From contig NZ_QAOK01000002.1 of assembly GCF_003050865.1 (NCBI RefSeq), forward strand, positions 62,001-126,000: a DNA stretch of 64,000 bases, written 5' to 3'. Positions 8,176 to 51,785 of the stretch are shown here, piece by piece. Made by a program: the position numbers and the translations under genes. How positions within the stretch are numbered: position 1 is the stretch's first letter; each line of letters opens with the position of its first letter. The stretch is from Nitrosospira multiformis. Its GTDB lineage: Bacteria; Pseudomonadota; Gammaproteobacteria; Burkholderiales; Nitrosomonadaceae. The notes beneath the pieces were generated by a model. The model had not been told where the DNA came from. It did not search any database and was given only the letters and a program-made list of their open reading frames with translations.

Positions 8176-9345
8176 ATGACTCTAGGTCTTATCGACTTGC
8201 CATGGTGGGGTTATATCGCCGTTATCCTCGGCCTTACTCATATAACCATTGCCAGTATCACAATCTTTCTGCATCGTCATCAGGCTCATCGTTCACTGGA
8301 TCTTCATCCCTTGCCCAGTCATTTTTTCCGCTTCTGGCTGTGGCTCACGACCGGGATGGTCACCAAGGAGTGGACAGCAATACACCGGAAACATCACGCC
8401 AAGTGTGAAACGGTCGATGATCCCCACAGTCCGCAAATAGTCGGGATCGCCAAAGTGCTGAGGGAGGGATCTGAGCTCTATCGCCAGGAAGCCAAAAACA
8501 TGGAAACCATGGAAAGATATGGCCATGGCACGCCGGACGACTGGATGGAGCGCAATGTCTATGACAAACATAGCCGCAAGGGCGTGGCGCTGATGCTGAT
8601 CATCGATCTCATCCTGTTCGGGCCGATCGGTCTCACCATCTGGGCCATCCAGATGGCATGGGCTCCCATCATGGCTGCGGGCGTGATCAACGGGGTAGGG
8701 CACTATTGGGGTTATCGCAACTTCCAGGCCGAGGATGCAAGCACCAATATCGTTCCCTGGGGAATTCTCATTGGCGGAGAGGAACTGCACAATAATCACC
8801 ACGCTTATGCCACTTCTGCGCGCTTGTCCAACAAGTGGTATGAGTTCGATATCGGCTGGATGTATATTTGCATACTTCAATGGATGGGGCTGGCGCAGGT
8901 GAAGAAGGTGGCTCCAAAACTGCGCCTCGATGCTGCCAAGACAGAATGTGATGCAGATACTCTGCAAGCAGTCATTTCTCATCGCTACGAAGTACTGGCA
9001 AAATATGCCCAGTCTCTCAAACAGACGCTGGCAAAGGAAGTTGATCATCTGAAAGAAGCTGCGACAAATCTTGGCGTTGACCGTTCCACGCTCAAGCGTT
9101 GGGTGCTTGCAGACTCCAAGACCCTGCAGGAAGACGAGCGGGCGAAGCTCAATCTGGTGCTGAGCAAGACGAGCACTTTGGATAAGGTTTACAAAATGCG
9201 CGAGGAATTGATAACAGTGTGGCAGCGCTCCGCTTCATCCAAGGATGATCTGGTCAAACAACTGGAAGACTGGTGTCACCGCGCCGAGGAAAGCGGCATC
9301 GAAGTGCTGCAGAATTTCTCCCGCAGATTGCGCTGCTATGCTTAA
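8176..9345 (+). CDS. Acyl-CoA/acyl-lipid delta-9-type fatty acid desaturase with C-terminal extension
   Basis: Membrane-bound di-iron fatty acid desaturase of 389 residues. The three histidine boxes are present: HRHQAHR (about residue 33), HRKHH (about 70) and ELHNNHH in the C-terminal half. Hydrophobic helices lie between them. It probably introduces a cis double bond into membrane acyl chains. After about residue 260, once the family core is complete, there is a roughly 130-residue mostly helical extension containing a helix-turn-helix-like stretch (AATNLGVDRSTLKRW). Comparable transposase-like tails occur on betaproteobacterial desaturases, from memory. AAAGG precedes the ATG. It is a single-gene unit ending at a very strong inverted repeat. 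Confidence 0.9.
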   Translation: MTLGLIDLPWWGYIAVILGLTHITIASITIFLHRHQAHRSLDLHPLPSHFFRFWLWLTTGMVTKEWTAIHRKHHAKCETVDDPHSPQIVGIAKVLREGSELYRQEAKNMETMERYGHGTPDDWMERNVYDKHSRKGVALMLIIDLILFGPIGLTIWAIQMAWAPIMAAGVINGVGHYWGYRNFQAEDASTNIVPWGILIGGEELHNNHHAYATSARLSNKWYEFDIGWMYICILQWMGLAQVKKVAPKLRLDAAKTECDADTLQAVISHRYEVLAKYAQSLKQTLAKEVDHLKEAATNLGVDRSTLKRWVLADSKTLQEDERAKLNLVLSKTSTLDKVYKMREELITVWQRSASSKDDLVKQLEDWCHRAEESGIEVLQNFSRRLRCYA

Positions 9346-42202: not shown

Positions 42203-43420
42203 TCAATGCAGATGTATGGGCGCTACTTCACCTTCTTCTGGGAATTCTGCATGCACGATTTCGCCATCCGCATTGGGAAACAGCGGTCCCCCGCATTCTT
42301 CGCAGTACTCCATAAGAAAATGCTCTTGCAGCAGGATAGTTTGTGTCACTCCGCATTCCCGCAGCGCTGCCTCGATCTGAGCGACGCTATCTGTATTTTC
42401 ATCCTCATCCCCTACCAGTCCCCAGATGATGCCGTAGAGCACGTTGTCCCGATCCTTGAGGGTGAAGCCAATGCGATATTCCTCCAGCCACTGATCATAG
42501 AAAGGCGCGATCACTGCACGCAACCTGTCTGGGGAAATACTCAGAGTGGTTTCCAGAAAATCAACCGTGGCACGCACCGAATAGGGGCGGGCCAGGCGGT
42601 CCGCCGCGCGCCATGCTGAAAAGAAGCCATCCGGCATCAGCAGTTCAAACGCACAGCCCTGGAATAGCGGCAGCAGCACTGCGGTACCGTGAGTCTGCCA
42701 TGCGTGCAGTATCTGCTCTTTGGAGAACTGGAGGGTGGAAACGTTGCTGCCCTTGTGCTCGCCCGCGTCCCCCTGCTGCCAGCGGAACATAGGTTTTCCC
42801 TGAGGGACCGCGACCCCGCCGAGGAGATAGCGGGTATCAGAAAGAAACCGTCCCGTTTCAGCAAGCTGCTGTGGGTTCATATGCAAATCGCGTTGTCCTG
42901 TCACCGCTGCCGACCAGAGTTTGCGAGCCAGTTCATGTGTAAGATGATAGCCTCTTGGCAATTGATCGGGGCTGAAAAGACAATCCGCAAGCGCAAGCCG
43001 GGCATCGTCCGCCAACACCTGCACCTGCAACTGCCCGCGAAGTTCGGAAAGCACGGATTCTGCCATTGGTCCCGAGGGAATCGAAAAACGTGACCAGGTG
43101 AGCACCGGTACAGCAAACATTAAAACGTCGTAAGTGTGATCCCCTCGCGTGAATATGCTGCATTCTATTGCAGCTTCGATGGCATACATGAATTCACTGT
43201 AGCCTCCAGGATCAGCATCATAAAGCTGATCCAGCGCAGCTTCGAGATTCTGATCGTCCCCCGTACGCAGTTGGGCATGTATTTTTGCCGCAAGGCGATT
43301 CTCCCAGAAGGCGTCTTCTACGCGACTGCCGGAGGCGGCAAGTCCCGTTGCCAGGCGCACAAGCTCCTGAACCATGCGCGCAGACTTGGTGCGATGAGGG
43401 ACGCGAAGTTTTTTCATCAA
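42203..43420 (-). CDS. DUF2863 family protein
   Basis: Conserved betaproteobacterial protein of 405 residues of unknown function, which I match to DUF2863. Most is soluble and without motifs I can assign. The C-terminal part has a zinc-ribbon-like YCEECGGPLFPNADGEI and an acidic tail. It is upstream of msrB on the same strand, with 51 bases between them. No membrane segments are evident. Confidence 0.7.
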   Translation of the reverse strand: MMKKLRVPHRTKSARMVQELVRLATGLAASGSRVEDAFWENRLAAKIHAQLRTGDDQNLEAALDQLYDADPGGYSEFMYAIEAAIECSIFTRGDHTYDVLMFAVPVLTWSRFSIPSGPMAESVLSELRGQLQVQVLADDARLALADCLFSPDQLPRGYHLTHELARKLWSAAVTGQRDLHMNPQQLAETGRFLSDTRYLLGGVAVPQGKPMFRWQQGDAGEHKGSNVSTLQFSKEQILHAWQTHGTAVLLPLFQGCAFELLMPDGFFSAWRAADRLARPYSVRATVDFLETTLSISPDRLRAVIAPFYDQWLEEYRIGFTLKDRDNVLYGIIWGLVGDEDENTDSVAQIEAALRECGVTQTILLQEHFLMEYCEECGGPLFPNADGEIVHAEFPEEGEVAPIHLH

Positions 43421-43713
43421 ATTGGCGTCCTGGATGGTTAAAGAATTATTTTAACCTAAATCCTGAATTCCCTGATATTTTGAAGCACTTATTGAGTCGG
43501 CGAGCAAGCAGTACAAGCGTCATATCGGATCAGATGGTCCGGCAGACAGCAAAGCGTGGCATAAAGCAGGCTGCGAAGCATAGCCGGAGGCAGGCGAGTA
43601 CAGCATGCCTCTCCGTCAGGGAATCGCCTCCTACGCCCTCCTGTGCCCTTTCCGGCCCCCTCCGCAGGGTTGCGGAGGAGGTCACTCGCCATCATCAGTT
43701 CCGATACGCTTCC
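43421..43713. other. Gap downstream of the precursor-peptide genes
   Basis: A minus-strand open frame at 43489-43695 is cysteine-containing but has no ribosome binding site, and its DNA resembles repetitive intergenic sequence. I see no supported gene here; a terminator for the peptide genes might be expected but none is clear. Confidence 0.4.
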
Positions 43714-43950
43714 TCAAAACCTTTCACGAACAGGCCCCCACGGAAGGAAGGGACACAAGGTCGCGTCACAGCTACAAGCTCCGGATGCAGGATTGCAATT
43801 GCAAAACAGTGTGCATCCCGGTCCGAGATCTATCGTTCGCATCATTTGCGGAATCACCGTTGTGCCATTCATGGAACCCTGCCTGCTCTTGAAATAATTC
43901 CCGGTTGTTTTGTAAACCGACGACTCCGCGCTAAATCCTGGTATGTTCAT
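43714..43950 (-). CDS. Putative RiPP-like precursor peptide 1 (Cys-rich core)
   Basis: Peptide of 78 residues. Leader-like start MNIPGFSAESSVYKTTGNYF, then a middle with TVIPQ (32-35 for VIPQ), and a C-terminal core rich in cysteine: C46, C50, C52, C59, C61 and C66, in GPGCTLFCNC and GACSCDATLC. C50-C61 form CxC-x6-CxC, exactly matched in the neighbouring peptide. AAGGAGATAAATC precedes the ATG, a very strong ribosome binding site. It is the last gene of the protease cluster. It has no signal peptide. It resembles small proteins beside PatG-like proteases; whether it is processed, modified or secreted is not known. Confidence 0.7.
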   Translation of the reverse strand: MNIPGFSAESSVYKTTGNYFKSRQGSMNGTTVIPQMMRTIDLGPGCTLFCNCNPASGACSCDATLCPFLPWGPVRERF

Positions 43951-43985
43951 GATTTATCTCCTTTCAATCAGTGCAGCGATATTTC

Positions 43986-44207
43986 CTAAAGCTCCCCCAA
44001 TACCGCATGAATTGCCCGTATGGCACCATGTTCCGATTTACAGATACAGATGTCGGTTGCAGCATCACAGTCGCATGTCCATTCCTGCAGCTTTATGCGT
44101 TGAGGGATAACTGATCCCTCTACCCGATGCATTGGCCCTGGCAACCGCCGAGCGATAGTATTTGTGCGACGAAGCGAGGCCTCAGCAGTAAATCCTGGCA
44201 TATTCAT
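43986..44207 (-). CDS. Putative RiPP-like precursor peptide 2 (Cys-rich core)
   Basis: Peptide of 73 residues. The start MNMPGFTAEASLRRT is nearly the same as peptide 1's; SVIPQRIKLQ follows, and the core has four cysteines (45, 47, 54, 56) in WTCDCDAATDICICK, the same CxC-x6-CxC spacing as peptide 1. ATG 44207 was chosen because AAGGAGGTGTGAA, close to the perfect anti-16S sequence, precedes it; the longer frame to 44234 is spurious. It lies 24 bases after the PatG-like gene. The last 17 residues lack cysteine and may be a follower or part of the product. Confidence 0.72.
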   Translation of the reverse strand: MNMPGFTAEASLRRTNTIARRLPGPMHRVEGSVIPQRIKLQEWTCDCDAATDICICKSEHGAIRAIHAVLGEL

Positions 44208-44230
44208 TTCACACCTCCTTCTTTGGAAAA

Positions 44231-45184
44231 TCAACGTTCATAATACGGAGAGATCTTGGTGACGAGGAAAGGAAACTCCTCGGTCACGTCCACCCGCACG
44301 AAGTACTTTTCGGTAAAATCGGTGTTGCGGTTGGTATAGGAGAAAATGACCTCGACGATGTTGCGTCCGCTGCTTAAAGCGGAGGGACGCACTTCCACGC
44401 CCGTCAGGGAATGATCTTCCGCAAACTCTTCCGCCGCCTTGGCATAAATGGCGGGATAGCGCATGGCAAGGTAGTTCAATGCCCGATGCTCATCCGTGGC
44501 GCCTGCGTTATCGGTCATGTGCATGATCCGGTCAAACAACTCCTCGGCAGCGGAGCCAAATCGCTCCTTGGCCATTTTCTCCGGTTTCGGAATTGCCCTG
44601 ATCAATTCATCCCGTCCAAAGGAATAGATCTGGTCGAATACCACTACCGGCACCATCAGCCCATTACACATCTCCGGCGGAGCAATGGGACCACGCATTC
44701 CGATGACCACATCGATATCCTGGGGAGCAGGCGCGGGCCGGATGGCATCAATCAACATATCGACATCAGCAGGATCGCGTGGAACCAGAAGATAGGTTTC
44801 CAGTCCCTGTACCGTCAGCACCCAGCATAGTTGCCGCACCAGATACCGGTTCTGTCGCTGGGACAGAACTTCATGGAAGGCCTGCTGATCGGTTTTGCCA
44901 GCGGTTTCTGCACGCCCGGTCGCTTGCGCAAATTCTTTTTCCACACTCAGATTAGGAAAGCGTGCTTCCACTCGTCCTATGGCATAAACAAAGGCATTCA
45001 TTCCGCCATTCGCATTCATGCCTTCAGCCCCACTCGGATTTTGGCTCATGCGCGTTCCGTTACAACCGCAGCTTCCTCCCATCTGGGGAGAGATCATTGC
45101 GTTCGAGGCCGAATCAGGCCTTGCCTGGATCGGTTGGTCTGTTGTGCTTTCGACGGGCTCTGCCATCGCAGTTTGTTCGTTCAT
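44231..45184 (-). CDS. Stand-alone PatG-like domain protein
   Basis: Protein of 317 residues matching the C-terminal PatG region of cyanobactin maturation proteases, without the peptidase part. Recognised stretches: NAFVYAIGRVEARFPNLSVE, then RQLCWVLTVQGLETYLLVPR, VVIGMRGPIAPPEMCNGLMV, and the C-terminus KYFVRVDVTEEFPFLVTKIS. Near residue 39 is the cysteine motif GGSCGCNG, with a CxC like that of the precursor cores. In canonical PatG the subtilase is fused; here it is split into the gene at 45561. It may bind or present the precursor. It is 89 bases after the 96-residue gene. Confidence 0.72.
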   Translation of the reverse strand: MNEQTAMAEPVESTTDQPIQARPDSASNAMISPQMGGSCGCNGTRMSQNPSGAEGMNANGGMNAFVYAIGRVEARFPNLSVEKEFAQATGRAETAGKTDQQAFHEVLSQRQNRYLVRQLCWVLTVQGLETYLLVPRDPADVDMLIDAIRPAPAPQDIDVVIGMRGPIAPPEMCNGLMVPVVVFDQIYSFGRDELIRAIPKPEKMAKERFGSAAEELFDRIMHMTDNAGATDEHRALNYLAMRYPAIYAKAAEEFAEDHSLTGVEVRPSALSSGRNIVEVIFSYTNRNTDFTEKYFVRVDVTEEFPFLVTKISPYYER

Positions 45185-45273
45185 ATTGCTCCTCTCTTAA
45201 CTTGGTAGTGCCAACGGCGTTAAAAAGCTGAAAATTTCCTCTAAAACGACCCTCTACTTCCCTTGCCATGCTT

Positions 45274-45564
45274 TTACTTCCGGCCGCGGGGTGTAAAAGA
45301 GAGCCAGCGATTGAGCGCAGCCGCCCGCCCTTCGCAACCTCCACAGGGTTTCATTCGAAAATAAGTGGTGGCGCGCTTGATCGCATCACCGAGCCCGATC
45401 TCCTCATCAGTAATGAAACCGGGCAGGCGCACGCGGTGAGCGGGCTGCTTGCCTGTATCTGCAACGCTTTCACGTTTAACCGGGTTTTTATCGCTTCCGC
45501 CATTTGTATTTCTTTCGCTCCCGTTCCTGCGACCCGGATTTACGTTGATATCATTTTCAGTCAT
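45274..45564 (-). CDS. Small CxxC partner protein of the PatG-like cluster
   Basis: Protein of 96 residues. The first 45 are polar and disordered; the last 50 are distinctive: LPGFITDEEIGLGDAIKRAT, then MKPCGGCEGRAAALNRWLSF. The CGGC at 74-77 may bind metal or be redox-active. I recall similar small proteins beside such subtilases but cannot name a family. It overlaps the protease gene by four bases (ATGA), so the two are coupled. Confidence 0.65.
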   Translation of the reverse strand: MTENDINVNPGRRNGSERNTNGGSDKNPVKRESVADTGKQPAHRVRLPGFITDEEIGLGDAIKRATTYFRMKPCGGCEGRAAALNRWLSFTPRGRK

Positions 45565-46505
45565 GCTGTTTGCCTCCTCGTATTTACCGCGGACAGTATC
45601 TGCCAGGCCGACTCGGCATCCAGCAGGGGTGGAACCACCGAACCCCGCCGCGGGTGATGGAGTTGCATGTGACCGCCTCCGGTTCCCATGATGGTTGCTT
45701 GCCGAAAGTTTTGAGGTTGGCGCATGAGGGCGAGCTTGATCTGGGCCGCCGTGGCATCAGGAAACTGTGACCACAGCAGCGCAATGGCGCCGGTGACAAA
45801 AGGCACAGCTACACTTGTACCGCCCATAGTGAGGGTTTGTCCCTCAGCGCCAAGGCCGGTGATGTTGTCGCCCGGCGCGCTCAAGCCGCGCGTTCCGATC
45901 GTGCTGCCGAGATTGGACTCGTTGATCGGATAGCCCCGCAAATCGCAAGCCACGACCGGAATAACCCAGCGATGGCGAGTAATGACGGAACTGCCCAGCA
46001 TGCCCTGGTTGCCTGCTGCAGCAGCAATCAGTACACCGCGGCTCAGCGCCTGGTTGAATGCTTCATCCAGCAGCTTCTCTTCCCTCGTCGAGGGCTGTGC
46101 CAGGGCGAGGCTCAGGTTGATAACGCGCGCCCCCGCATTGATGCAGTCAAAAATTGCCGCCGCCAGTTCTTGCGGAGTGGCACTGGGCATGTGCTCGCGT
46201 CCGGCGGTACTTTCGCTGAAAATCGGGCGGATAAGGAGCGTACAGTCGGGACAAATGGCAGGCGCAGGAGAAGTGCGCCTGGCCGCGAGGATGCCGGCGA
46301 TGAAGGTTCCATGCAGGCAGGCGCTGCTATTGGTCCTGGTACAGCTCGCCCCGTTATTTCCGGATATCTCCTGAAGATGTCCGTTTGCCAGATCCGCATG
46401 ACTGGTGGCGACAGGGCCGTCGATGAGTCCGATCCTGATATCGGAACTGCCGCTGGTACGCTGCATCAACCCGGTGAGCTTGACGAGTTCGGTAGGGCGC
46501 AACAC
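45561..46505 (-). CDS. PatA/PatG-like subtilisin-family (S8) peptidase
   Basis: Serine peptidase of 314 residues, similar to the protease domain of cyanobactin PatA/PatG. Catalytic residues are in place: D29 in IGLIDGPVAT, H65 in CLHGTFIAG, the oxyanion N166 in AAAGNQG, and S231 in MGGTSVAVP. The insert with ICPDCTLLIRPIF is typical of this subfamily. No signal peptide, so it is likely cytoplasmic. GTG 46505 or TTG 46502 fit the AGGAG site. It heads the minus-strand cluster protease - CxxC protein - PatG-like - two peptides and probably cleaves the leader. Confidence 0.85.
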   Translation of the reverse strand: MLRPTELVKLTGLMQRTSGSSDIRIGLIDGPVATSHADLANGHLQEISGNNGASCTRTNSSACLHGTFIAGILAARRTSPAPAICPDCTLLIRPIFSESTAGREHMPSATPQELAAAIFDCINAGARVINLSLALAQPSTREEKLLDEAFNQALSRGVLIAAAAGNQGMLGSSVITRHRWVIPVVACDLRGYPINESNLGSTIGTRGLSAPGDNITGLGAEGQTLTMGGTSVAVPFVTGAIALLWSQFPDATAAQIKLALMRQPQNFRQATIMGTGGGHMQLHHPRRGSVVPPLLDAESAWQILSAVNTRRQTA

Positions 46506-46989
46506 TTTCTCCTGAATCTAAAGTTATAACCTTCCATGCAGGGGGAAGACAGTTTGAGCCAGGAAAGTACTTACCCAACTCTCGCCTGCTTTATGTTTAG
46601 CACACCTCATGCCGCAAGCAAGCTCAATCAGATCCTTAAATACGGGCAGGTTTAGCAGGAATAAAGACCGGGGAAATTTTTATCCGGAAGTGGAAGCGGG
46701 AAGGGGATTTGGCGGTCTATTGATCCGCCCAGAAAATACTATGAATCTCGTCATTCCGGGCCTGACTCTGAATCCAGCAAACCGGAATCCAGTCCAAACC
46801 AATAATGGCGTGCTTTGAATGTCACTGGATACCGGCTTCAGCCGGTATGACGTTTGTACTGTTTGCTCGCCGACTCAATAAAAACAGCGACTGCAAACAA
46901 GATTCGACAGGTGACAACGGCTGGATGTTACGCGCACCGGGTACTCGCAGCCATTTGGATCCAAAGATATGGAAACTGCCAGCATTATC
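46506..46989. repeat. Intergenic region with palindromic element
   Basis: No gene seen. ATACCGGC (46829-46836) and GCCGGTAT (46841-46848) form a hairpin in a block (about 46755-46855) of the type 'cattccgg...aatccag...ggattccggc', a widespread extragenic repeat. The protease promoter should lie near 46520-46600 on the minus strand, but I cannot point to one. Confidence 0.5.
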
Positions 46990-49900
46990 TCAAGTTGTCC
47001 CTGCGGGATCGGGCGCATCTCTTCCGTGGGCGAGATGGTACAGCACCGGTAGTACCAGCAGTGTCAGGGCCGTGGATGACAGAATTCCTCCAATGACCAC
47101 CGTTGCCAGCGGCCGCTGCACTTCCGCCCCGATACTTGTAGCCAGAGCCATGGGAACAAACCCGATGGCAGCCACCAGGGCTGTCATCAATACCGGGCGC
47201 AATCTCGCGAGTGCTCCTTCCTTGATGGCATCTTCCAGTGACCGGCCTTGCGCGCGCAAGTCCCGTATGAATGACAGCATCACGAGGCCGTTCAGCACGG
47301 CGACACCAGACAGAGCAATGAACCCGACCGCGGCGGAAATGGACAGGGGGATGCCCCGCAACCACAATGCCACTATACCGCCACTGAGGGCAAAGGGAAC
47401 GCCGGTGAACATCAACCACCCGTCCCGAAAATTGCCGAACATGGCGTAAAGCAGCATCAGGATCAGTCCAAGCGCCAGGGGAATTGCTATTTGCAACCGC
47501 TTCGCCGCAGAAACCAGTTGCTCGAACTGTCCCCCCCAGGTGAGCCAATATCCCGAAGGAACGGGCACTTGCTTCACCACCAGTGCTTCCGCTTCTTCGA
47601 CAAAGGAACCAATATCCCTGCCTCGTACATTCGCGGTAACGACAGCCCGGCGCTTGCCGTTTTCCCGGCTCACCTGGTTGGGTCCCTGGAGGACTTCGAT
47701 GACGGCGACTTCGCCGAGAGTAACGTAGGTCATGCCAACGGGCGCCTCGGCTTGCGGATTTCCGGTTTGTGTCTGGTTTTGCGGATTCCCGGTTGCCGAT
47801 CCTCTCACTGGAATTCCGACGGGCAATCGCCGGAGTGCATCCGGATCAGTCCGCAACTGTTCCGGTAGCCGCACCTGCAGCTCGAAGCGGCGATCGCCCT
47901 CGAAAATGGTTCCGGCGTTTTTTCCACCAATGGCAACCGCTACTGCATCCTGTATATCCGCAATATTCAATCCGTAACGCGCAAGCTTTACACGGTCAGG
48001 CTGAACGGTCAGCACCGGCAGGCCGGTAAGTTGTTCGGTTTTTACATCCGCCCCCCCCGGAACAGTCTTGAGCAGATGCTCGACCTGGTCTGCCACCCTG
48101 AACAGCGTGTCCATGTCGTCACCGAATACCTTTACCGCGACGTCCGCTCGCACACCGGACAACAACTCATTGAATCGCATCTGGATGGGCTGGGTGAATT
48201 CATAATTGTTGCCCGGTATCTGGCCTACCGCCTGCTCCAGTGCAGCGATAAGATCTGCCTTCGTGGAATATTGTTTCCGCCATTGCGACTGGGGTTTCAG
48301 CATGACGAAGATGTCTGCCACGTTCGGCGGCATGGGATCGGTTGCAATCTCGGCAGTCCCGATCTTGGTGAAAACACGGTCCACCTCGGGAAATGCCTTG
48401 ATTGATTCCTCCAGTTCATGCTGCATCTCGATGGCCGTGGTCAGGCTGGTGCCGGGGATGCGGATTGCGTGCAGCGCGATATCGCCCTCATTGAGGCTGG
48501 GTACGAACTCCGTACCCATTTTTGTGGTCAGCAGGCCGCTCAACACAACAATCACAACGGCGGTGGTAACGGTGAGGCCCTGGTTCCTCATTACGGCGTC
48601 GAGAACCGGCAGGTAGGCTTTCTTCGCCCACGCAACCACCGCGCTTTCCTTTTCTGTCACTTTTCCCGTCAGAAAGAGTGCAATCGCCGCCGGGACAAAC
48701 GTTATGGAAAGAATCATCGCACCTAGCAGGGCGGTTAATACCGTGTAGGCCATTGGGTGGAACATTTTCCCTTCCACTCCCGAAAGCGTGAAGACGGGAA
48801 GATAAACCACCATGATGATGAGCTCGCCATAAATGAGCACACGCCGCGCTTCCCTGGTCGCGTCGAATACCACTGCGAGACGCTCGTTCAACGAGAGTTG
48901 GCGCCCCAGCCGCGCCTGCTCATGAGCCAGCCGCCGCATGCTGTTTTCCACGATGACGATCGCGCCGTCCACGATGAGGCCGAAATCGAGCGCCCCCAGG
49001 CTCATCAGGTTGGCGCTGACCCCATTGGTTACCATTCCGGTAAAGGTGAACAGCATCGAGAGGGGAATCACGAGCGAAGTGATGACGGCCGCCCGCAGGT
49101 TGCCAAGGAAAAGGAGCAGCACGACGATGACCAGTATCGCGCCTTCGAGCAGGTTGGTGGCAACAGTCCTGATCGTCTTGTCCACGAGCGTCGTCCGATC
49201 ATAGACAGCGATTGCTTCGACACCTCTCGGTAGATTCCGGTTGATTTCGGCGAGTTTTTTTGCGACCGCCTGCGAAACGACACGACTGTTTTCTCCGATC
49301 AGCATGTGGGCGGTGCCGATCACGGTCTCCTGCCCATTCTGGGTCGCGGCGCCGGTGCGCAATTCCCGTCCTATCAGCACATCGGCCACATCCTTGATAC
49401 GTATGGGTATCCCCAGCCGGGATCCCAGGGTGATGTTCCCAATCTCTTTCAGGTTTGCCACCTGTCCCGGCACTCGCACCAGGTACTGTTCGCCGCTTTT
49501 CTCGATATATCCGGCGCCGACATTGAGGTTATTGAGGCGCAATGCGACGATGACGTCATTCAGTGTCAATCCGAAAGAGATCAGCTTTTCGGGGTAGGGC
49601 GCGACATGGAATTGCTTGACGAAACCTCCGACGGCGTTTACTTCCGTGACGCCCGGTACCATGCGCAGCTGCGGGCGGATGATCCAATCCTGGATTTCCC
49701 GCAGGTCGGTGATGCTGTATGGCGACCCGTCAGGCTTTTGCGCACCCTCTCTTGCATTGACAGACCACATGAAAATCTCGCCCAGGCCGGTTGAGATCGG
49801 TCCCATGGTCGTTTCCACATCGACCGGTAAACGCTCTTTGGCTTCCTGCAGCCTCTGGTCGATCAACTGGCGGGCGAGGTAGATATCCGTGCCGTCCTCA

Positions 49901-50190
49901 AAAATAACCGTAACCTGCGAGAGGCCGTAGCGGGAAAGCGAGCGGGTGTACGCGAGATTGGGGAGCCCTGCCATGATCATCTCGATCGGGAAAGTGACGC
50001 GTTGTTCAACCTCGATCGGGGTATACCCGGTTGCCCGCGTATTGATCTGTACCTGCACGTTGGTTATGTCGGGCACCGCGTCGATGGGGAGCTTCTGGTA
50101 GCTATGGATTCCCACGGCGCCCATCGTCAGCACGGCCATCAGGACCAGCACGCGCCGCTGAATGGAGAGTTCGAGGATGCGCTCAATCAT
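46990..50190 (-). CDS. czcA: Heavy-metal RND efflux pump, CzcA family
   Basis: Inner-membrane proton-driven pump of 1066 residues, exporting divalent cations through the CzcCBA complex. The helix-4 motif LDFGLIVDGAIVIVEN contains the D/D/E residues typical of CzcA (Zn/Co/Cd), not the CusA pattern. The N-terminus MIERILELSIQRRVLVLMAV and two large periplasmic loops are normal. An insertion near the middle, about residues 815-840 (GSATGNPQNQTQTGNPQAEA), is low-complexity Asn/Gln/Pro-rich and not usual in the family. It is the last gene of czcICBA, 68 bases after czcB. Confidence 0.92.
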   Translation of the reverse strand: MIERILELSIQRRVLVLMAVLTMGAVGIHSYQKLPIDAVPDITNVQVQINTRATGYTPIEVEQRVTFPIEMIMAGLPNLAYTRSLSRYGLSQVTVIFEDGTDIYLARQLIDQRLQEAKERLPVDVETTMGPISTGLGEIFMWSVNAREGAQKPDGSPYSITDLREIQDWIIRPQLRMVPGVTEVNAVGGFVKQFHVAPYPEKLISFGLTLNDVIVALRLNNLNVGAGYIEKSGEQYLVRVPGQVANLKEIGNITLGSRLGIPIRIKDVADVLIGRELRTGAATQNGQETVIGTAHMLIGENSRVVSQAVAKKLAEINRNLPRGVEAIAVYDRTTLVDKTIRTVATNLLEGAILVIVVLLLFLGNLRAAVITSLVIPLSMLFTFTGMVTNGVSANLMSLGALDFGLIVDGAIVIVENSMRRLAHEQARLGRQLSLNERLAVVFDATREARRVLIYGELIIMVVYLPVFTLSGVEGKMFHPMAYTVLTALLGAMILSITFVPAAIALFLTGKVTEKESAVVAWAKKAYLPVLDAVMRNQGLTVTTAVVIVVLSGLLTTKMGTEFVPSLNEGDIALHAIRIPGTSLTTAIEMQHELEESIKAFPEVDRVFTKIGTAEIATDPMPPNVADIFVMLKPQSQWRKQYSTKADLIAALEQAVGQIPGNNYEFTQPIQMRFNELLSGVRADVAVKVFGDDMDTLFRVADQVEHLLKTVPGGADVKTEQLTGLPVLTVQPDRVKLARYGLNIADIQDAVAVAIGGKNAGTIFEGDRRFELQVRLPEQLRTDPDALRRLPVGIPVRGSATGNPQNQTQTGNPQAEAPVGMTYVTLGEVAVIEVLQGPNQVSRENGKRRAVVTANVRGRDIGSFVEEAEALVVKQVPVPSGYWLTWGGQFEQLVSAAKRLQIAIPLALGLILMLLYAMFGNFRDGWLMFTGVPFALSGGIVALWLRGIPLSISAAVGFIALSGVAVLNGLVMLSFIRDLRAQGRSLEDAIKEGALARLRPVLMTALVAAIGFVPMALATSIGAEVQRPLATVVIGGILSSTALTLLVLPVLYHLAHGRDAPDPAGTT

Positions 50191-50258
50191 GATGCCGGTG
50201 AAACTGATCTATTTGATCAAGAGGGATGGAACCCTTACGTGACCTGCCTGACCCGGAT

Positions 50259-51785
50259 CTAGTGTTCATGGGTAGCCCCCGATTTACCCAGCTCGGCTTT
50301 GATCGCAAAGCTGTTGCCTGCCGCGTATTGCTCTCCTGCCTCCAAGCCATGGAGAACCTCGATCGTCTTGCCGTCGCTACGTCCCAGTTCCAGCGGCCGC
50401 GCCTCGAAATATTCACCATAACGTCCGAATGCTACGGTCCAGTCACCGAGTGTCTGAAGCGCGTCGGCAGATACGGCAACAGGTACGGGAATTTCTGCAG
50501 CCACCATTTCGGCAGTTACGAACATCCCGGGGCGCCATTTTCCCTCCCTGTTTTGCAGGGCGAGCCGCGCCGTGGCGGTACGGGTCTGGCCGCCGATCAG
50601 CGTGGTGATGTAGATAACAACGCCTTCCCCCTCTACATCCGACGCCGTTGCTCTGATGGTTGCCTTTTGCCCAACCTTGACTACATCCAGATCTTTTGGA
50701 TAAACCGTGATGCCGGCCCACACCGTCGAAACATCGGCAATAACAAAAATATGTTCATCTTCCTTCAGCGTCTGGCCGAGGGCGACAGCCTTGTCGATGA
50801 TTAGCCCGGATATCGGTGTCCGGACTTCGTAGCGGGCCAGATTGCCGGAAGAAGCCGCTTCCGGCTGCACCCCGAGCGACTGCAGCTTGACCGCAGCCAG
50901 ATCCACTGCAATCTCCGCTTCATTCAGCAGTTCCTGGGCGACGAGGTAGTCCTGCTTGGCGGAGATTTTTTCTTCCCAGAGCTGCCGTTCGCGCTTGTAG
51001 GTGGTCTGCGCCAGCGCCAGCCGTTTCCTGGCTACCCGATACTGACTACGCAGTTCTGCCAGCATCTGGCTCTCTATCACCACAAGAATCTCTCCTTTCT
51101 GCACCTGCTGGCCGTGGTGACGCTTCACGGCTGTGACTATTCCCGGCAGGCGGGGTACCACCTGCACGATGGTATGCTCGTTGAAGATGATCTCGCCAGG
51201 CAGCTTGAGCATGGGTTTGATGATGGCAGGTCCCGCAGTGCGTATTTCGATGCCGGAGCCTTTCAGCATCTCGTCCGGCATTTCCACCCTGGCCTCGACC
51301 TGGCTGTATTCCCAATGGATCGTCTTGCCTTTCCATTGAACGGTAATCACGGCATCAAACGAGTGCGGCTCCTCTACTATCTGATCGCTCACCAGGTAAT
51401 CAGCCTCAGGCGTGAATTTGAATACCTGCGCGGGTGCTCCAAGGCGCGACAGCGTCATGGTGACCCTGGCAGCGGTGGGCGGAAGAGGCTTGCTCTTTTC
51501 ATATAGATAGAGCCTGAAGCGCGGCGGCACGTTAGCCTCAAAAATAGTTACCTCCAGGCCAAAGCCATCTGTTTCACCTTCGGTAAAAAGCTTTCCGCCT
51601 TTTGGCCCCTCCCGGTAGTTCGATGATGCCTTGCCTTCGACCGCAGGTGCTTCATGAGTAGGATAGGCCGCGGAATCCCCGGAGATGGATTGCGAAGTCT
51701 TGTCGGAGCTGAGTATCAACCCGCCAAATGCAATTCCTATGGCGATTACGGCAATGATCGGAAACAGTCTCTTCCTGTTATTCAC
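50259..51785 (-). CDS. czcB: Periplasmic adaptor of RND efflux, CzcB family
   Basis: Membrane-fusion protein of 508 residues, anchored by an N-terminal helix (LFPIIAVIAIGIAFGGLIL). The early domain (about 60-170) includes EGETDGFGLEVTIFEANVPP. The barrel-sandwich and coiled-coil part contains LPGIVTAVKRHHGQQVQKGE and ELRSQYRVARKRLALAQTTY. The C-terminus ends ATHEH, where histidines could bind metal. It links CzcA to the outer-membrane channel. It ends two bases before the czcC stop region, in one operon. Confidence 0.92.
   Translation of the reverse strand: MNNRKRLFPIIAVIAIGIAFGGLILSSDKTSQSISGDSAAYPTHEAPAVEGKASSNYREGPKGGKLFTEGETDGFGLEVTIFEANVPPRFRLYLYEKSKPLPPTAARVTMTLSRLGAPAQVFKFTPEADYLVSDQIVEEPHSFDAVITVQWKGKTIHWEYSQVEARVEMPDEMLKGSGIEIRTAGPAIIKPMLKLPGEIIFNEHTIVQVVPRLPGIVTAVKRHHGQQVQKGEILVVIESQMLAELRSQYRVARKRLALAQTTYKRERQLWEEKISAKQDYLVAQELLNEAEIAVDLAAVKLQSLGVQPEAASSGNLARYEVRTPISGLIIDKAVALGQTLKEDEHIFVIADVSTVWAGITVYPKDLDVVKVGQKATIRATASDVEGEGVVIYITTLIGGQTRTATARLALQNREGKWRPGMFVTAEMVAAEIPVPVAVSADALQTLGDWTVAFGRYGEYFEARPLELGRSDGKTIEVLHGLEAGEQYAAGNSFAIKAELGKSGATHEH

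Follow-up and report, generated by a model that had tools for sequence, protein, structure and literature searches.

Gene content of the locus

The window analysed here is a 64,000-nucleotide stretch of DNA from Nitrosospira multiformis (NCBI RefSeq assembly GCF_003050865.1, contig NZ_QAOK01000002.1, positions 62,001 to 126,000 of the forward strand), and positions are counted from its first nucleotide. It is part of a 3.29-Mb, N. multiformis-like genome (G000, contig C2) and carries a locus of five open reading frames (ORFs) related to the PatA/PatG machinery of cyanobactins. These encode a subtilase of family S8, a 96-residue CGGC protein (C96), a stand-alone protein corresponding to the C-terminal domain of unknown function (DUF) of PatA and PatG, and two candidate precursors, pep1 and pep2, of ribosomally synthesized and post-translationally modified peptides (RiPPs). 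The features are as follows.

45561–46505, minus strand: PatA-like S8 subtilase, 314 aa (Pfam and PDB matches, catalytic residues)
45274–45564, minus strand: C96, 96 aa (motif LPGF...GLGD...K.CGGC..RA..LN)
44231–45184, minus strand: stand-alone PatA/PatG C-terminal domain (DUF) protein, 317 aa (PatG_D and PatG_C)
45062–45094, minus strand: N-terminal tail of the DUF protein, ISPQ...CGC, like VxPQ...C of the precursors (motif)
43986–44207, minus strand: precursor peptide 1 (pep1), 73 aa (leader profile match, 2.9e-12)
43989–44099, minus strand: predicted core of pep1 after VIPQ, 37 aa, 4 Cys (from VxP[QA])
43714–43950, minus strand: precursor peptide 2 (pep2), 78 aa (leader profile match, 1.6e-13)
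43717–43845, minus strand: predicted core of pep2 after VIPQ, 43 aa, 6 Cys (from VxP[QA])

The five ORFs were found head to tail on the minus strand, running from 46505 to 43714 in the order S8, C96, DUF, pep1 and pep2, as given in the preliminary description of this DNA, which had also noted the overlap between the S8 and C96 genes (4 bp). The remaining genes are separated by 89 nt (C96-DUF), 23 nt (DUF-pep1) and 35 nt (pep1-pep2), and an AGGAG-type sequence lies 5′ of every start. Ratios of dN/dS were computed against N. multiformis strains Nl7 and Nl18, whose DUF proteins are 97% identical to that of the window, and amounted to 0.18-0.20 for S8, 0.05-0.07 for DUF, 0.10-0.15 for pep1 and 0.13-0.15 for pep2. 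By this measure, S8, DUF and both peptides show purifying selection and, given the low ratios, pep1 and pep2 look like real genes. On the other side, a search of 43400-46900 turned up no sigma-70-like promoter (2.4 in shuffles). The region directly upstream (46990-51785, same strand) encodes an RND efflux pump of 1066 aa that by eye resembles CusA/CzcA, together with a 508-aa membrane-fusion-like ORF; in Nl7 and Nl18 the upstream DNA likewise contains the end of a closely similar RND ORF.

The S8 protein matched Pfam Peptidase_S8 at 1.1e-25 (91 bits, gathering score 21.8) and has the Asp/His/Ser triad and oxyanion Asn of the family. Residues D29, H65, N166 and S231, previously described as intact, are conserved in 60, 61, 63 and 63 of 63 aligned S8 sequences, respectively (window included). 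No signal peptide or prodomain was seen by eye. Best PDB matches were 3zxx (3.3e-28), 4h6v, 3zxy and 4h6w; 4h6w is named N-terminal cyanobactin protease, and 3zxx and 4h6v we take to be PatA. The PatG macrocyclase domain 4h6x matched far less well (1.9e-11). Asp and His are 36 residues apart, which is the mode of the alignment (46/63; range 29-42, barring one gapped row), and aligned with 3zxx this interval differs by one residue. On these comparisons the protease is classed as PatA-like, with a short Asp-His spacing. In PADLOC, only subtilase/IetS protease models matched S8, and DUF, C96 and both peptides matched no defence-system component at 0.01.

The DUF protein matched PF18047 (PatG_D; 3e-38, 131.1 bits, gathering score 27) and PF18065 (PatG_C; 9e-37, 126 bits, gathering score 25.9). 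A profile of eight relatives matched the PatG DUF structure 4uvq at 5.9e-37, whereas a single-sequence PDB search found nothing at 1e-3, so it is profile comparison that supports homology to the solved domain. In the part of their paper available, the authors of that structure describe a new fold whose role is not known (PMC4259220). The earlier statement that PatG is split was imprecise: a stand-alone protein related to PatA/PatG is indeed present, but it corresponds only to the C-terminal domain common to both, and the protease resembles PatA. Near its N-terminus the DUF protein carries [VILMF]xP[QA] in 43 of 64 sequences (7.9 in shuffles) and CxC or CxxC in 57 of 64, eight of 72 DUFs that were cut or had no recognisable start being omitted. 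Since this tail combines both motifs, S8 may trim DUF itself, or the tail may mimic an S8 substrate. In L035 and L017-L019 (G105, ~739 kb), an additional DUF gene copy, which is broken, was seen away from the intact operon.

C96, pep1 and pep2 had no Pfam match above cut-off. In C96, residues P, G, G, C, C, R, L and N are invariant (41 rows). An AF2 model was obtained with pLDDT 73.5 and pTM 0.47; assignment to a known fold was rejected after a Foldseek comparison with the PDB gave five matches (best E 6.4) and a PDB profile search reached E 0.65 at best. The CGGC half weakly resembles the phage family phrog_32048 (3e-4), of unknown function. In Nitrospira sp. S2bin.17 (L100, 8565-8798), at a locus with a fused S8-DUF, a PGFTAE leader is fused to the GLGD...CGGC motif of C96, and in view of this fusion C96 may act both as helper and as substrate.

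Leader, junction and core of the precursor peptides

Precursor peptides start with M-x-[MIL]-P-G-F-T-A-E-x-S-L and, in most, the leader ends in [VI]-x-P-[QA] about 30 residues on, VxP[QA] having been sought 22-40 residues past the Pro, which bounds the distances. The consensus of 48 leader rows reads MNxPGFTAEASLY.....Y............VxPQ. These 48 rows, taken from 109 diverse leaders (132 before filtering; L044 at 6445, L106 at 59 and L054 at 4231 dropped), formed profile A2. Across 79 DUF loci, the start pattern defined 135 leader peptides on the DUF strand and three on the opposite strand (residue shuffles, 1.6); with the profile, 165 matches were found on the DUF strand and one on the opposite strand. 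A junction [VILM]xP[QA] was present in 84 of 133 peptides (L044 at 6445 and L106 at 59 dropped), while shuffles gave a mean of 7.0 and a maximum of 16.

Cysteine composition changes sharply along the peptides. For all 135 peptides, the leader part holds 26 Cys in 5324 residues (0.5%) and the remainder 779 in 7027 (11.1%). Cores, with a median length of 43 residues in cases with a clear motif, are hypervariable: 180 of them (20 unlinked ones and the two of the window included, those shorter than 12 aa excluded) fell into 116 clusters. They are rich in CxC, CC and CxxC patterns, and a few core families are common to distant groups, such as the PRAVCNAC/PRAVCRAC type found in Methanoperedens, Nitrospira and Pyrinomonadaceae. 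An even number of Cys was counted in 152 of 156 Cys-bearing cores, in 18 of 20 unlinked precursors and, by cluster majority, in 109 of 113 clusters. With at least three Cys, 156 cores are even and five odd, as against 471 even and 812 odd control ORFs of the same loci. The simplest reason for these even counts would be pairing of the cysteines. In short, an encoded precursor with a conserved leader and a variable core, as in RiPPs, is present.

Some precursors (in L022, L029, L051, L132, L136, L141 and L147) contain two Cys-rich segments connected through Gly-rich linkers; by eye, the first is hydrophobic-bacteriocin-like, and the second ends in a CC...C...CP-type pattern. In Nl7 and Nl18, a third leader-like ORF (MSMPGFTAGDALPRTT...) was seen 3′ of pep2 (L038 ~8357-8890; L039 ~8500-8907). 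None was seen in the window, a difference that suggests rapid turnover of precursors.

Distribution of the gene set

A scan of genome contigs with DUF returned 79 loci. By identity over the best segment, 72 were close (48-97%) and seven distant (23-27%). The distant loci (Vibrio, Rhizobiales) had neither leaders nor C96. Among the close loci, S8 was found in 65, C96 in 52, a leader in 63 and all three in 51, with 165 leader ORFs; some of the missing members are due to contig ends. Within the family of the window genome (125 genomes, own included), DUF was found in 16 genomes, a leader in 17 and C96 in 13, all of the latter among the 16 with DUF. Leaders occurred in 16/16 DUF-positive versus 1/109 DUF-negative genomes (Fisher p 2.7e-19) and, in the family of Methylobacter luteus (G522; 151 genomes), in 4/4 versus 0/147 (Fisher p 4.8e-8); as genomes and loci are related and profile A2 includes rows of both groups, leader matches there arise partly by construction and these p values overstate independence. 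In a 398-genome spread sample of the phylum, the PatG_C model matched two genomes, namely the own one and G454, which has a fused S8-DUF; leader matches were confined to the own genome and, marginally (7e-4), the inside of a 715-aa frame.

Ten of the 16 family genomes with DUF have unlinked leader peptides, which lie on a different contig or at a long distance from the operon. The window genome has two (on contigs C9 and C29) in addition to the two in the operon. In 19 unlinked stretches of DUF-positive genomes, most peptides lie alone between unrelated ORFs. Up to eight leader peptides occur per genome in the family, and 12 on one Acetobacteraceae contig. With precursors this far from the operon, processing should act in trans.

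A DUF tree, built by a quick method, covered the window plus 70 close loci out of 72; stars mark 14 of its 68 inner branches, and many rows come from metagenome-assembled genomes (MAGs). Its 71 proteins carry 11 phylum labels, and S8, DUF and leader stand together in one locus under ten of these. Rarity of the gene set elsewhere had been named beforehand as grounds for giving up the idea of a pathway; the genes co-occur widely. Hosts include Streptomyces, Acidobacteriota and cyanobacteria and, going by their titles, many oxidisers of ammonia, methane or nitrite. Phyla interleave in the tree: labels change 20 times, where 10 is the minimum and shuffling gives a mean of 42.5. This suggests transfer between lineages, although many loci are MAG contigs, where faulty binning may account for an isolated odd placement. 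The set also occurs on two plasmids of rhizobia, of which one is typed as conjugative. Each has two leader peptides alongside S8, a C96-like ORF and DUF (80% and 72% identity); in their gene tables (PLSDB, incomplete) the peptides are not listed and DUF is a hypothetical protein. Eight loci are archaeal, with S8 in five, a leader by profile in two and C96 in none; L101 and L103 (Nitrosocosmicus-type) have one leader-like ORF each by pattern. The archaeal evidence is thinner than the bacterial. A changed order, with S8 after the DUF gene, was seen in bacterial and archaeal loci (L053, L087, L094, L098, L101-L104).

Neighbours were surveyed starting from 412 ORFs of at least 130 aa, of which 185 were near and at most 600 aa long; 90 were hand-picked, all on the DUF strand. 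No Pfam family occurred in more than two of these 90 (Radical_SAM, among others, in 2/90), a survey that leaves out opposite-strand and some same-strand nitrosomonad ORFs and would miss a partner on the other strand, above 600 aa or unlinked. For peptidase C39, the own genome gave two matches, none above cut-off.

Proposed function and comparison with known systems

We consider it probable, on sequence evidence, that the locus directs leader-guided maturation of disulfide-rich ribosomal peptides, with a PatA-like, non-cyclising subtilase making the cut after VxP[QA]. The PGFTAE part of the leader would be read by the DUF protein, the subtilase or both, and the core cysteines, present in even numbers, would pair as disulfides. 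Acting in the cytoplasm, the subtilase would cut after VxP[QA] and free a linear core. C96 and the CxC/CxxC tail of DUF would be accessory, perhaps in thiol oxidation or metal binding. Export might follow an unlinked route, and the products might have an extracellular role, competitors being the likeliest targets; both of these steps are guesses.

Several observations weigh against this proposal, besides the relatedness of the genomes mentioned above. The strict junction is missing from 49 of 133 peptides, nine leader ORFs have no Cys past position 36, and in two leader peptides (L086 at 8073, L100 at 7972) the place of the Cys-rich core is taken by a long acidic tail free of Cys. Even counts also prevail, far less extremely, in control ORFs with at least two Cys (1515/2327 even, 812 odd). 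No exporter, immunity or regulator family recurs among the 90 neighbours. According to the accessible part of PMC4259220, Mann et al. report that linear PatE peptides do not bind PatG DUF. One genome (L133; G095, C13) has a leader peptide with a Cys-rich core and no DUF or C96 match, the peptide being either a relic or in independent use, and among the archaeal loci only L058, from a Methanoperedens MAG, has S8, DUF and leaders by profile. C96 is absent from 20 of the 72 close loci, has dN/dS of 0.66 and 0.41 in the comparisons with Nl7 and Nl18 and is broken in both strains (L038, L039) by separate single-base deletions, with S8, DUF and peptides intact. It was not found in L047 and L052 either, and looks dispensable.

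Three other explanations were weighed against disulfide-rich peptide maturation. Cores could instead bind copper, zinc or another metal, in the manner of metallothioneins or chalkophores, with the subtilase freeing them from the leader. Ammonia, methane and nitrite oxidisers are rich in copper enzymes. Many hosts belong to these groups, cores abound in CxC, CC and CxxC, and the operon of the window adjoins an RND efflux gene pair that is metal-type by eye. The near-perfect even parity (152/156), however, fits disulfides more than metal sites; Streptomyces, Acidobacteriota and cyanobacteria are among the hosts too, and the cores (116 clusters of 180) vary a great deal for one ligand. We regard metal handling as unlikely, yet grant it some weight since copper dependence is presumed for many hosts and Cys clusters are common. 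Slightly less likely still is regulated degradation, in which S8 and DUF would read the leader as a tag and destroy Cys-rich proteins that act intact in the cell. The scattering of precursors among other genes and the lack of a recurrent exporter or immunity family would suit it; the fixed junction motif at a sharp boundary between Cys-free and Cys-rich parts fits one defined cut, and a constant N-terminus with hypervariable C-termini is the usual precursor anatomy.

The weakest candidate is a cyanobactin-like route, in which the subtilase, homologous to PatA/PatG like the DUF protein, would both cleave and macrocyclise and a remote enzyme would make heterocycles. The helix-loop-helix insertion of PatGmac sits between Asp and His. 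In a conference abstract this insertion is stated to be needed for cyclisation, and cores of 6-11 residues to be accepted (PMC4698589). Here, no room for it was found, the Asp-His spacing being 36 in the window and never above 42 in 63 S8 proteins, and the median core has 43 residues. No YcaO match was obtained at E<=1 in the own genome, whereas seven of 14 controls gave one, and pep1 and pep2 matched no NCBIfam family, PatE-type precursors included, at E<=1. Against TIGR03895 (cut-off 421 bits) S8 scored 107 and DUF 26, although split proteins could not reach this cut-off singly. Such a route is thus highly improbable: with no YcaO, macrocyclase insertion or cyanobactin precursor match, the machinery is, by homology, cyanobactin-related and the system itself is not a cyanobactin. 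The preliminary description, which saw a PatA/PatG-related, RiPP-like cluster distinct from cyanobactin clusters, without adjacent YcaO, is borne out on these points by the PatG_D/PatG_C and PatA-like matches, by the leader-core precursors, by the genome-wide YcaO search and by the neighbour survey. Its interpretation is partly supported overall; the shared leader, the hypervariable even-Cys cores and the unlinked precursors are additions to it.

Beyond disulfide-rich peptide maturation at this locus, we tentatively propose, as a possibility that falls short of even odds, a class of such peptides that spans many bacterial phyla and reaches archaea. In it, a trans-acting module of PatA-like protease, stand-alone DUF and CGGC protein would mature an open-ended set of scattered precursors. 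DUF would read the leader and, together with its CxC/CxxC tail and C96, link cleavage to oxidative folding. On this view, the DUF of cyanobactin PatA/PatG would be a remnant of that role. Maturation as proposed would make these loci a large, apparently unread source of disulfide-rich natural peptides. It also becomes testable how a single protease might yield a wide variety of Cys-paired peptides in bacteria that have no dedicated cyclase. The same holds for what the conserved PatA/PatG C-terminal domain, whose role is given as unknown in the available part of PMC4259220, contributes: standing alone here, it can be removed by deletion or supplied again.

The gene set is apparently undescribed: among open-licence PMC papers, in the parts accessible, no description of the system was found, which does not prove this status, and the leader and CGGC motif strings had no match. 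In the portion available of a report on Roseomonas oryzae, a cyanobactin peptidase gene is described, from which its authors predict a new cyanobactin-like peptide (PMC8776678); by description only, this is the nearest lead, a similar case of such a gene in a non-cyanobacterium, with no gene but the peptidase named. With the cyanobactin pathway (PatA/PatG, patellamide), the present system has in common a PatA-type S8, the PF18047/PF18065 domain and leader-core precursors. It differs in its stand-alone DUF, in leaving no space for the macrocyclase insertion, in its many unlinked precursors and in longer, Cys-rich, hypervariable cores. ElxP, the S8 protease of epilancin lanthipeptides, likewise acts inside the cell and, as far as the accessible text of a review goes, recognises (D/E-5)(L/V-4)X2(Q-1) (PMC10885120). 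Its L/V at -4 and Gln at -1 resemble VxPQ, a likeness by motif only, whereas here Pro stands at -2, Ala is frequent at -1 and no lanthipeptide enzyme was seen. Fused S8-DUF proteins of Rhizobiales (L112-L116) and of L036, from the same phylum, combine the same two domains, with Cys-rich stretches between S8 and DUF in the five of L112-L116; unlike the system described here, they show 23-27% DUF identity, no leader or C96 in L112-L116 and no leader in the L036 genome. Prochlorosins are made by a multi-precursor RiPP system with trans-acting enzymes. No ring-forming enzyme was found here, where disulfides are predicted instead, and what the two have in common is one machinery, a constant leader, variable cores and unlinked precursors.

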